Shown here piece after piece: positions 48,657 through 52,954 of a DNA stretch of 64,000 bases. Positions within the stretch are counted from its first letter, which is position 1. Each line of letters begins with the position of its first letter. Where the stretch lies: contig NZ_FNDJ01000002.1 in assembly GCF_900099965.1 (NCBI RefSeq), positions 62,001-126,000 on the forward strand, read 5' to 3'. Under the pieces are notes generated by a model. That model ran no database searches, was not told the origin of the DNA, and worked only from the letters and a program-made list of their open reading frames with translations. The position numbers and the translations under genes were made by a program. Origin of the DNA: Nonomuraea jiangxiensis (GTDB taxonomy: Bacteria; Actinomycetota; Actinomycetes; Streptosporangiales; Streptosporangiaceae).

Positions 48657-48696
48657 TTCATTTCGCAGACCTCGCCGCTGACTTCACGCTGTGGAT

Positions 48697-48744
48697 TGTG
48701 ACTTGTATCGCTTGATGACGTGATTTTGGGATCGCTATTTGTCG
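48697..48744 (+). repeat. Left terminal inverted repeat of the 4.16-kb transposon
   Basis: It reads inward from TGTGACTTGTATCGCTTGAT. Positions 10, 15, 17, 22 and 26 differ from the right end; the inner 22 bp are identical. It supplies the TAG stop of the truncated serC frame (48735-48737). Confidence 0.85.
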
Positions 48745-49166
48745 TTGTCGGCGTCCTCCTCGGCCACGGCCGTGGGGTAGGTGCCGACCTCGGACTTGAT
48801 GACGCTCGGGTCGGCCAGCCACGGGGCCTTCTTGGTGACCGTCGCGAACTTCGAGGAGAACTCGCCGAACGACAGGTGCTGCGACTTGTCGCGGATCAGC
48901 CCGAAGGCGGCGATGTCCCAGAAGGCAGTGGTGCCGCCGTTGCCCAGCACGACCTGGTAGCCCTCGGGCAGCGAGAACAGGTCGGCGAGCCCGGAGCGTA
49001 CGCGGCCGACCAGGTTCTTGACCGGCTTCTGGCGGTGCGAGGTGCCCATGACACTCGCGCCGGAGGCGGCGAGCGCGGCCAGTTGCTCGGTGCGTACCTT
49101 CGAGGGCCCGCAGCCGAAGCGGCCGTCGGCGGGCTTGAGGTCAGCGGGAATCACGATGTCAGCCAC
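48735..49166 (-). pseudogene. serC: Phosphoserine aminotransferase, N-terminal 140 residues only
   Basis: From GTG 49166 it reads '[20 protein letters not shown]', [20 protein letters not shown] and '[20 protein letters not shown]', an undamaged actinobacterial SerC start. The frame is cut at '[12 protein letters not shown]', where the transposon end begins, so the PLP lysine and the whole C-terminal two thirds are missing. It is probably a host-gene piece captured by the element; the functional serC should be elsewhere. It is divergent from the receptor gene. Confidence 0.85.
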
Positions 49167-49303
49167 CTGACTGATCCCGCGGGGTTGATTAGGGACCGGG
49201 GCTGGAATCTGAGAAGAACCCCACAGCCAAAAGATCCCCAATGCCGCAGAATGGAGGAACTCAGGACCTGCCATGTTCGTGACGCGAGAGCGGCGGTGGC
49301 GCC

Positions 49304-51889
49304 ATGCCCTCAGAACAGGATTCGCGAGAGGTGGTGGAGGGTCTGCTGCGGCGGCCCTTCTGGCGGGACCTCCCGCTGCCCGTGTTGGTCGTCACCGGAG
49401 CGCGGGCCGGTGCGGCCGCGCAGCTGGCGGAGCGTTTCAAGGCGCGCCTGCCGTACGCGAGGCCGGAGAAGGGCGCGAACAAATCGCTGGCCGAGCTAGT
49501 GGACGCGCTGGCCGGCGCCAATGGCGCTCTGGGCGGCAACACGGTCGGCAACACCCTGCTGCCCGCCCCACGCTTCCCGCTGACGGAATTCGTGTTGTGG
49601 GCCCGGGCCCAGCGCGACAAGAGGCCGGAGGAGTGGCCGAAGGCAAGGTGGCCGCCACCTCCTGACTCGCGCCCCGGGCAGGAGGAGCTCAAGCATCGGT
49701 TCAGGGCCAGGTTCGGGGTGCGTCCCAGCCTGCAGGCCGACAGCCGCAAGCGGTGGGCGGCGGGCGACTTCCTCGTGCGGGCCGCGGTCTTCTTCGTGCC
49801 GGTCGCCACCGTGGTCGCCTGGTGGCTGGACGCCGGGATCACCGACCTGATCCCGCTGGCACCCGGCCTTCTCGCATTGCTGCTGGGCGTCGGCGCGATC
49901 GCGTTACAGGCGGTGCGCTTCATCCGCGGCACGGCCTTCTCCCGGTGGTTCCGCCTCCACCGGTACAAGGACCTGCGCCGCACCGCCGGCGAGAGCCGCC
50001 CCAAGTACGCGCTGCAGCTGATGAACGCGTCAGAGCCGGAGATCGAGAAGCTGCTGGTCTACGCGATGCTGGAGGACCTGCGCCAGGCGTACCGCAAGTG
50101 GCCGCGGATCCCGTGGCCGAGCTGGGGTCGCGGACTGTACGCCCTGCTGGTGCTCGACGCGGATGATCCGGTCCACGCGCGGCTCCTGCGGATCCTTGAC
50201 GAGGTCCTGTACGAAACGGACATCGTGCCGCCGCTGCTGGTGATCGTCGAGGACCCGGGGCAGCCGGTGCCGCCGCCGGCCGACCGAGAGCCGCGGACCA
50301 TCACCGAGGACGTCGAGGACTGGCGCTCGCGCGTGGCGCTGCGCGGGCCGGAGCCGCGGCTGCGTCTCGCCGGCGACAAGCTGGTGCTCACGGACACCTA
50401 CGAACCGCGGCTGAGGGGGGTCAAAGCCCGTGCCGTCGGCTACTGGCTCGCGATGGTGGCGCTGCTGCTCGCCCCGCCGCTGTACGTCTACGGCAGCAAC
50501 TGGTTCGGCTGCGGCTCCGGCATGATGTCGGCCGAGCAGCAGTGCGTCGGCCTGAGCGACAACCTTGCCGAGATCGCCCCCGACCCGGCCCTCTTGCCCA
50601 TTCTTGAGCGGATCAAGCAGCAGAACGAGGCCATCGACACGAGGCAGCGGGTCATCACGGTCTTCTATCTCGGCGTGCTCACCACGTCACATCCGGGCGA
50701 CGACCAGACGGGCGGCTCGGCCGGCGAACTGTCCGGCATCGCGGCCCGCCAGGGAGCCTACAACCGGCTCGGCAGCTGGCAGATCAAGGTGGAGCTGGCC
50801 AACAGCGGGCAGTACTTCCGGCACTCCGAGTTCGCCGCCAGGATGATCAGGCAGCGCGCGGCCGGTGACCCGGACGTGGCAGGGGTGATCGGGCTCGCGT
50901 GGAGCAGGACCGAGACGCAGGACGCCATCCGGGTGCTCAGCGACGCGCACATCCCGATTCTCAGCACCACCAACTCGGCCGACCTGACCCCGCTGGTCTA
51001 CCAAGGTCGTCCTTCGCCGTACTTCTTCCGCATGGCGGCTCCCAACTCCGCGCAGGCGCGGGCGTTCGAGCTGTGGCTCGACCACGGGCTCCCCGGAGGT
51101 GCGCCGGTCCCTCCGCGGCGGGTCGCCATCCTGGTCGAACGCGACGCGGAGGACCGCGAGCTCTACAGCAAGGACCTCGCGGACGCGCTGGCCAAGGGCC
51201 CGTACGGATCCGCCGAGCAGTACCGGTTCGCCGACCAGGACGAGCTGGCCAGCAAGGTCGACCTGGCCTGCCAGGACGGTGCGGAGGTGCTGCTCTACAC
51301 CGGCCGGGCCACCTTCCTGAACACCGTGGCCGACACCCGGGAGCACCAGTGCGGGGACAAGGTGCAGATCCTGGCGAGCGACGACGTCACCGAGAAGCTG
51401 GCCCAGCTCCTCGTCAAGAATGACTTCACCAACAAGCCGGCGATCTCGTTCGTCGCGCTCAACGACATGCGACAGGGGCAAGGCGGCAACCGTACCCAGA
51501 CGGAGATCGAGAACTGGATCGCGAGCGTCAAGGCGGTGGGCGTGTCCCGCGTGCACGCGTGGATGGGCTATGACGCGCTGCTGGCCGTCACGTCGGCGAT
51601 CAACAAGATCAAGGCCTCTGACGTCGACGAGTCGGTCAACATCGCCGAGAGCGTCGCGTACAACCTGCGTGGGCTCGGTGTGGGCGGCCTCATCCAGGGC
51701 GCGAGCGGGAAGTTCTACTTCTCCGAGGACGCGGAGTCACACGCCGCGCTCCCTCGCGGGCTCTGGCTGTTCTCCATAGACGCCGCCCCGGGTTCCTCCG
51801 CGAACGGCCCGGTGCTGCGGGGGAGCTGCACGGTCGACGAAAAGGCCCCGGGCACCGCCGAACTTGAGGTGAAGTGCTCGTTCGGCTGA
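49304..51889 (+). CDS. Membrane receptor-like protein: degenerate NTPase region, three spans, periplasmic-binding fold
   Basis: The 861-residue protein is intact. Residues 23-50 ('[20 protein letters not shown]') look like a P-loop strand that has lost the GK(S/T). Spans lie at about 157-177 and 183-206, followed by a cytoplasmic region with a Walker-B-like [11 protein letters not shown] (279-289), and a third span at about 377-397. From about 440 to 850 there is a type I periplasmic-binding fold (LivJ-like: '[12 protein letters not shown]', '[16 protein letters not shown]', '[20 protein letters not shown]', '[18 protein letters not shown]'). This suggests an extracytoplasmic ligand sensor coupled to a cytoplasmic module. 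ATG 49304 is the start. Ligand, partner and output are unknown. Confidence 0.8.
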
Positions 51890-51894
51890 CGCGC

Positions 51895-52095
51895 TCGGAA
51901 CGCGTTGCGGTAGGGCGTACGTTCGAGCAGCCCCTTCTTCACCAGCCGCTCGGCCACGGTCTGCACCGTCGTGTACGCCAGTTCGCGCTCCTCGTTGAGC
52001 CTGACCAGCAGTTCCCTGACGCGCATCGGTTTCCGGGCATCCCACAGCACGTCCATGATCGCGCGCTCCAGGGACCCCAGGCTCGCCAACTGACC
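51895..52095 (-). pseudogene. BlaI/MecI/CopY-type repressor DNA-binding domain fragment
   Basis: The minus strand gives 'ASLGSLERAIMDVLWDARKP', 'MRVRELLVRLNEERELAYTT' and 'VQTVAERLVKKGLLERTPYR', a complete winged helix of a BlaI-type repressor. It is cut just after 'NAFR' where it meets the 3' end of the receptor gene; the dimerisation domain is gone. No beta-lactamase or BlaR gene is present. Confidence 0.7.
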
Positions 52096-52152
52096 AACTG
52101 GCCGGGCGTGGAGGGAGGCACCGACCGCGCCCCGGTGGCCGCGCAGGCGGGA

Positions 52153-52381
52153 GCGTGGGGATCGATCCTTCCGGCCGTGTGGAGTTTCATGCTGGCCGCC
52201 GGGGCACGCGGCGTGGGTGTGGACCACCGCACAGGGACCGCTCGAACGCGAGCTGGCTAAGGTGCTCGGCGTGCCGTTCGAGGAGGTCATACTGGCGGCG
52301 TTCATCCCGCTGGTCTTCACCCTCGGCACCGACTTCAAGCCTGCTCCCCGCATCCCGCGCAAGGAGGTCCTGCACTGGGAA
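52153..52381 (+). pseudogene. Nitroreductase family fragment with frameshift
   Basis: 'SILPAVWSFMLAAGARGVG' is followed, after a one-base frame change near 52215, by 'VWTTAQGPLERELAKVLGVP' and 'FIPLVFTLGTDFKPAPRIPR' then KEVLHWE. This is the C-terminal part of a nitroreductase-like flavoprotein. The N-terminal FMN site is missing. Confidence 0.65.
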
Positions 52382-52439
52382 CCATCGAGCACGCTTGCCA
52401 GGCCGTCCCGACCCCAGGACGGCCTGGCAAGCGGATCGG

Positions 52440-52661
52440 ACACACACGGAGGTGCCCTCACCCCTCAGCCTCGGCGACACCGACGACTACGCCACCACCG
52501 AAGCCCTCGCCGCCATCACCCGCATCACCAGCGGCAACTTCCGCCTCACCGTCCGCCTCGTCGGCCAGATCGAACGCGTCCTGAAAATCAACAACATCTC
52601 CACCGTCACCAAGGAAGTCGTCGAAACCGCCCGGAAGAACCTCGTCATCGGCACGATGTGA
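52440..52661 (+). pseudogene. C-terminus of TniB/AAA-type transposition ATPase
   Basis: The frame reads 'DYATTEALAAITRITSGNFR', 'LTVRLVGQIERVLKINNIST' and VTKEVVETARKNLVIGT to a stop 145 bp before the right terminal repeat. It matches the last part of AAA ATPases that partner DDE transposases (GNFRLxxRLxxQIERxxxIN). Being next to the end, in outward orientation, it is probably the remaining piece of the element's own transposition genes. Confidence 0.7.
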
Positions 52662-52806
52662 GCCCGACACGACTTCGAATCCGAGGCCCACCAGCAACCA
52701 CAACACCCCAAACAGGCCGTTGCCCTCTCCACCAGCTGAGCGGGTAGAGGCCTTGGAGTTCTCAAGGAATCCAATCCAGGGCGTCAAGATCGAAAACCAG
52801 TGACCA

Positions 52807-52854
52807 CGACAAATAGCGATCCCAAAATGACGACATCGAACGATCCAAGTCACA
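52807..52854 (-). repeat. Right terminal inverted repeat of the 4.16-kb transposon
   Basis: Read inward on the minus strand it starts TGTGACTTGGATCGTTCGAT and ends CGCTATTTGTCG. It is flanked outside by CTGTGGAT (52855-52862), matching the left flank. Confidence 0.85.
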
Positions 52855-52954
52855 CTGTGGATCCAGGCTCAGCAAGTCCTATCGGTTGCATGTCGAAGGC
52901 ACTTTCCGTGTTTCTGATCAATTCCAGGGCAGCCCGCCTTGTGAAAGTGCGAGG

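Follow-up and report, generated by a model that had tools for sequence, protein, structure and literature searches.

A transposase-less, cargo-bearing element in Nonomuraea jiangxiensis, probably derived from a Tn552-like transposon

The DNA analyzed here (the window) is a stretch of 64,000 nucleotides from the actinomycete Nonomuraea jiangxiensis (contig NZ_FNDJ01000002.1, positions 62,001 to 126,000), and it contains, at 48697–52854, a 4158-bp element that is a genuine transposition unit. We consider this element, with a probability of about 0.87, to be a transposase-less, cargo-bearing defective derivative of a Tn552-like (TniA/TniB) transposon. It is an actinobacterial variant of a known transposon type with 8-bp target duplications, and not a member of a new family. 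The observations on which this assignment is based are the ends, the target duplication, the mosaic interior, the lost genes, and the related elements that carry tniA and have the same end plan.

Ends and target duplication

The terminal sequences at 48697–48744 and 52807–52854 are inverted copies that are identical at 43 of 48 positions, and their inward extension gives 47 matches in 53. With equal base frequencies, the chance of at least 43 matches in 48 is about 5e-21 for a single pairing; when every pair in 64 kb is taken into account, it is about 1e-11. The flank CTGTGGAT exactly abuts both ends; these are its only two occurrences on the + strand of the window, and its reverse complement has none. 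When the right end was used as a query against the organism's own genome, the two ends in the window were the only matches. The host contig is 709 kb long, and the element lies well inside it. The first-pass annotation had described 48-bp ends with 8-bp flanks and had concluded that the piece moved here as one unit; the identical flanks and the well-preserved ends bear this out. The terminal features are as follows:

48689–48696, no strand: left target duplication CTGTGGAT, identical to 52855–52862
48697–48749, + strand: left terminal inverted repeat, with 24-bp sites at 48697–48720 and 48721–48744
52662–52801, no strand: right-end spacer, between the tniB tail and the right terminal inverted repeat
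52802–52854, − strand: right terminal inverted repeat, with 24-bp sites at 52831–52854 and 52807–52830
52855–52862, no strand: right target duplication CTGTGGAT, identical to 48689–48696

Each end is composed of two 24-bp direct repeats, the best internal period being 24 (scores of 12/18 and 13/18, against at most 7 at other offsets). The right end of the window's element is 49/50 identical to one in genome G170, and over 52645–52854 the match is 90%; in place of the tniB tail, G170 has a different sequence, whose point of fusion falls in the final 17 bp of tniB.

Mosaic interior and lost machinery

Scanning of the four interior open reading frames (ORFs) with Pfam and NCBIfam named only an N-terminal part of SerC and part of a Penicillinase_R domain. 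No transposase was found in these four ORFs and no TniA match in the window; no recombinase match was found inside the element, where res sites were not searched for. The interior consists of five parts:

48752–49177, − strand: 5' part of serC (phosphoserine transaminase); NCBIfam TIGR01366, E = 3e-63, profile positions 1–130 of 361
49304–51889, + strand: ORF861, an intact 861-codon cargo gene; open frame without family assignment
51896–52097, − strand: fragment of a blaI/mecI-type repressor gene; Penicillinase_R, E = 4e-14; 96% to positions 4856–4657 of locus L140 in genome G138
52098–52464, + strand: 3' part of a nitroreductase-family gene and following sequence; Pfam PF00881, E = 5e-22 on its relative in L148
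52463–52661, + strand: tniB tail (AAA ATPase), the last 65 codons and the stop; 97% nucleotide identity to genome G165

The tniB tail is the only trace of transposition machinery. Its translation (52464–52658), which neither Pfam nor NCBIfam names, is 95% identical to the last 65 residues of the full-length TniB of G165, and because it stands beside the right end it ties the element to tniA-tniB operons. The earlier description of an AAA tail without a transposase, and of a non-autonomous cargo carrier, holds for an interior that carries a chromosomal block and encodes no transposase.

The serC fragment is cut by the left end of the element, and the other serC copy of the same genome is 93% identical to it over 410 bp. 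Together with ORF861 the fragment forms one block (48752–51892) that is contiguous in the G138 chromosome (94% over 3150 bp) and is also present in G157 at 88%. Both of these native serC/ORF861 loci were covered by a profile scan for ends, which detected none at either of them. ORF861 itself had no match in NCBIfam, Pfam, PDB sequences or PADLOC. Its dN/dS against the G138 ortholog is 0.245, and the changed codons comprise 32 synonymous and 17 other on the window branch and 22 and 14 on the G138 branch; there is therefore no visible loss of constraint. The source of the blaI piece is this G138 locus as well, at a distance of about 850 bp, and relative to the block the piece is inverted.

Two parts of the nitroreductase piece, 52096–52217 and 52401–52464, have counterparts in G138 immediately upstream of a decayed tniA. 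Because of this adjacency, the piece appears to have been part of a transposon already, and the arrangement suggests that tniA and most of tniB were deleted afterwards. The nitroreductase fragment is followed by a perfect inverted repeat of 17 bp around an 8-base loop (52392–52433), possibly a terminator.

At the mosaic junctions the parent sequences share about 0–4 bases, and the ORF861/blaI junction has a few bases from neither parent; most likely the pieces were brought together by illegitimate joining, as such junctions would lead one to expect. In the organism's own genome, searches for further copies of ORF861 (5 of 476 candidates scored) and of the blaI piece (9 of 276) gave no match, and the cargo was therefore probably put together in a different strain and arrived later.

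These results bear on a different history, in which the element was self-mobile on arrival and tniA-tniB was deleted after insertion here, which would have made supply in trans unnecessary for this insertion. Since the nitroreductase piece lies directly upstream of tniA in G138, one simple deletion could suffice, and deletions of the transposase genes of Tn552 have been suggested on some plasmids (PMC3276174, of which an excerpt was available). However, the lack of a second ORF861 or blaI copy in the scored candidates makes a pre-assembled cargo more likely, and in genome G166 another cargo-bearing element, likewise flanked by an 8-bp duplication, has no intact tniA or tniB either. These points do not date the tniA-tniB deletion itself, and we regard deletion after arrival as unlikely, at perhaps one chance in five.

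Just left of the element, 47163–48656 (− strand) encodes a transposase of the IS1380 family of insertion sequences (IS; NCBIfam profile positions 3–408 of 419), and an imperfect 30-nt hairpin is found at 48587–48654.

Related elements and family assignment

Ends like those of the window's element (E ≤ 0.01) occur in at least 17 of 341 genomes of the family, a lower bound since at most two candidate places were scored per genome. An exact 21-base end pattern had zero matches in the genome contigs. One counterpart is the 8709-bp element of G166, whose left end is identical to that of the window's element at 47 of 50 positions (94%) and which is flanked by the 8-bp duplication GGTTCGGC. It has the tyrosine recombinase, an N-terminal remnant of TniA and a short match to the tniB tail, and its cargo is a sigma-factor/subtilase operon that is contiguous in the G159 chromosome at 91%. 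The 17.9-kb element on contig C17 of G153, with ends that match those of the window's element at 41–42 of 50 positions and a 7-bp duplication, contains decayed tniA and tniB remnants and a partial serine recombinase. The 6.27-kb element at locus L073 (4644–10915) is complete: both tniA and tniB are of full length, and a tyrosine recombinase takes the place of the usual serine one. From its left end it runs through the recombinase gene, the cargo, tniA and tniB to the right end, and no duplication flanks it. About 2 kb to the right of the window's element, and outside it, 54934–55023 (− strand) is a 30-residue remnant (80%) of a tyrosine recombinase, and the matching recombinase adjoins an end in both the G166 element and L073. 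In genome G179, two facing ends lie 256 bp apart (L036, 11425–11680), possibly a miniature derivative; their flanks do not match.

In these relatives tniB, which carries AAA_22, lies downstream of a transposase gene with Pfam domains rve and Mu-transpos_C (560 residues in L071, 467 in L050), so that relatives in which a DDE transposase adjoins the AAA gene do exist, in line with the first-pass annotation. Against NCBIfam the transposase gave only matches below the cut-off, the best being IS481. The gene pair is accompanied by a serine recombinase or, in L073, by a tyrosine recombinase near the far end. In a comparison with plasmid sequences, TniA of L071 is 43% identical to Tn552-type transposases of Staphylococcus aureus, against 31% for Tn402-like TniA. 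A tree of 83 rows, made by a quick method and with several long branches (the stop-broken TniA matches L162, L164 and L190 were left out), places the S. aureus Tn552 row with Bacillota rows inside a group of 80; three other TniA/TnsB-type rows, set as outgroup, fall apart from this group by long branches.

The two-site 24-bp end plan of the window's element is shared by relatives having tniA, and such two-site ends with a tniA relative occur in several phyla. Of 21 ends chosen from 14 duplication-flanked elements in five phyla, 20 had a period of 24, and the remaining one, of a Planococcus element, had 23; these ends were taken from 14 of the 15 duplicated pairs described below (L198 was not included) and from none of the ten pairs without duplication. 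The end sites of Tn552 are 23 bp long. The plasmid stretch examined for the ends of Tn552 itself did not yield them: the best inverted pairs there were two recombinase genes, and the two rows meant for Tn552 were left out of the period comparison.

All 79 loci of one survey (the best 80 of 185 confirmed) were examined, and 25 end pairs were chosen by hand from it and from other searches, leaving out L157, L168, L216 and L223 (not end-like, or at contig ends) and the repeat record L227 (= L082). Exact duplications of 5–8 bp were present at 15 of the 25 pairs, against one in 600 mismatched pairings (5 bp, and never more). Four elements have 8 bp (those of the window, G166, N. solani and Glutamicibacter), five have 7 bp, another five have 6 bp and one has 5 bp. 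Actinomycetota account for all nine cases of 7 or 8 bp, and other phyla for all six of 5 or 6 bp; in Nonomuraea, three elements have 8 bp and one has 7 bp. The N. solani and Glutamicibacter elements bear tniA, in both cases with stops in the frame.

A different account of the locus is that two old solitary ends flank a decayed chromosomal stretch by chance and that no unit ever transposed. Mateless ends are indeed numerous in the genus within the stretches examined: far stretches beside solitary ends yielded one mate only, in G153:C17, and among 12 further regions with a right end or tniA no pair flanked by a duplication was found. The mosaic interior, with its illegitimate-looking junctions, also fits this account. 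Chance flanking is nevertheless very improbable, given two well-preserved ends with identical 8-bp flanks that occur nowhere else in the window and the rarity of even 5-bp matches in mismatched pairings.

The first-pass annotation had taken the 8-bp duplication and 48-bp ends as possible marks of an undescribed family. An unrelated new family would accord with the length of the duplication, which exceeds the reported 6 bp of Tn552 (PMC3276174, excerpt), and no intact tniA was seen between ends of precisely this sequence. Yet the two-site end plan is that of elements with Tn552-type TniA in several phyla, the tniB tail adjoins the right end, and 8 bp is also found at the tniA-bearing N. solani and Glutamicibacter elements. 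A duplication of 8 bp is no mark of a new family, because elements of the same type with tniA relatives have 5–8 bp, and we consider this proposal highly improbable. A new family defined by the 8-bp length was rejected in view of that same range, and an unrelated IS family with 8-bp duplications in view of the tniB tail and the end plan.

Judged by the features of Tn552-type elements, the window's element has TG...CA ends of two tandem 23–24-bp sites and a duplication in the family range (8 bp; 5–8 bp here; 6 bp reported for Tn552), but neither a p480/TniA DDE transposase (rve plus Mu_C) nor a cointegrate-resolving recombinase was matched inside it. Of the AAA ATPase gene (p271/TniB) that follows the transposase gene in such elements, it retains the C-terminal 65 codons. 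Because no transposase is encoded, it is filed as a defective derivative and not as a full Tn552-like member.

Mobilization and comparison with known systems

The tniA search was positive in 31 of 54 genomes of the genus. In the organism's own genome, where 30 of 62 initial candidates were scored, it gave one TniA fragment of about 100 residues only, and a tniB piece adjoins this fragment on contig C41: in this remnant (L083, G000:C41:226000-238000, 6830–7280) the N-terminal part of TniA is followed by the TniB piece, as after an internal deletion. Because only tniA/tniB remnants of this type were found, movement in trans, as the first-pass annotation had proposed, is the most likely route, and the element is probably stranded in its present genome.

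The history of the Tn552-like derivative would then be as follows. The ancestor probably had the layout of L073 and lost its recombinase, tniA and all of tniB except the tail, and the serC-ORF861 block and the blaI and nitroreductase fragments were most likely joined in by illegitimate recombination. TniA/TniB from a helper element would bind the two 24-bp sites at each intact end and join the 3'-CA ends to the target with an 8-bp stagger, leaving CTGTGGAT on both sides. The Tn552-like group has a replicative mechanism, and we infer that it was used here and that a recombinase would have resolved the product.

Several results weigh against this reading, in which transposition in trans is deduced from sequence. 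No duplication of at least 5 bp was found at 10 of the 25 end pairs. The ends of L073, one element of the type closest in TniB, match those of the window's element at only 22–27 of 50 positions, and an intact tniA with ends of the same exact sequence class as the window's element was not found; the intact copies with observed ends have ends of other classes. Furthermore, no second copy of the same cargo between such ends was found, and the empty site that the first-pass annotation had hoped to see in related strains did not appear among the 54 genus genomes (at most seven candidates scored per genome). The right flank was matched (E ≤ 1e-20) in nine of them, the organism's own included, and the eight other matches span only about 240–370 bp at 68–71%.

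The element is a clear case in which machinery was lost, chromosomal genes were taken up and the unit moved, with a likely donor-type locus visible in a relative. Possibly, though this is tentative, Tn552-like transposons in Nonomuraea and its relatives repeatedly lose tniA/tniB while their two-site ends are preserved, gain chromosomal blocks (some with intact genes) between these ends, and are kept moving by a shared pool of TniA/TniB acting in trans. If so, such elements would play the part in bacteria that Pack-type elements play in plants. Because the duplication varies from 5 to 8 bp within one transposase family, its length alone is unfit for calling a new family.

Among the papers listed on mobile insertion cassettes, elements of Nonomuraea, Tn552 in Actinobacteria and transposase-less capture, none describes these elements, as judged by its title and the opening of its abstract; a published description may exist all the same, since in one listing the ten entries shown of 518 did not mention Nonomuraea. 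In PMC5704250 the match was to Tn5520 only.

Among known systems, Tn402/Tn5053-type elements and defective class 1 integrons have TniA/TniB ends that are moved in trans while the tni genes are partly deleted. They have 5-bp target duplications. The window's element differs in its 8-bp duplication, and the TniA of its relative lies outside their branch; the reference TniA rows, one of which we take to be Tn402 from its TniB neighbor, are separated from the 80-row group by long branches.

The nearest characterized transposase seen is that of Tn552 of Staphylococcus (p480 transposase, p271 ATPase, bin resolvase), and the relatives share its gene order of recombinase, transposase and ATPase. Tn552 is reported to have ends of about 120 bp and 6-bp repeats, with 10 bp around some copies (PMC3276174, excerpt), whereas the window's element has 53-bp ends, 8 bp, no transposase and another cargo. 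A published precedent for a transposase-less cargo derivative is ΔTn552 of staphylococcal plasmids, in which the transposase genes are absent and a 4278-bp copy with direct repeats is thought to have inserted by transposition (PMC3276174, excerpt). That copy lies in a res site with 10-bp repeats, other copies have no flanking repeats, and ΔTn552 carries bla genes (same excerpt), in contrast to the chromosomal gene pieces carried here.

Miniature inverted-repeat transposable elements (50–500 bp) and mobile insertion cassettes are likewise non-autonomous and borrow a transposase (PMC10969869, seen in part). The 4.16-kb element of N. jiangxiensis differs from the former in its size (4158 bp), its intact 861-codon gene and its chromosomal fragments.

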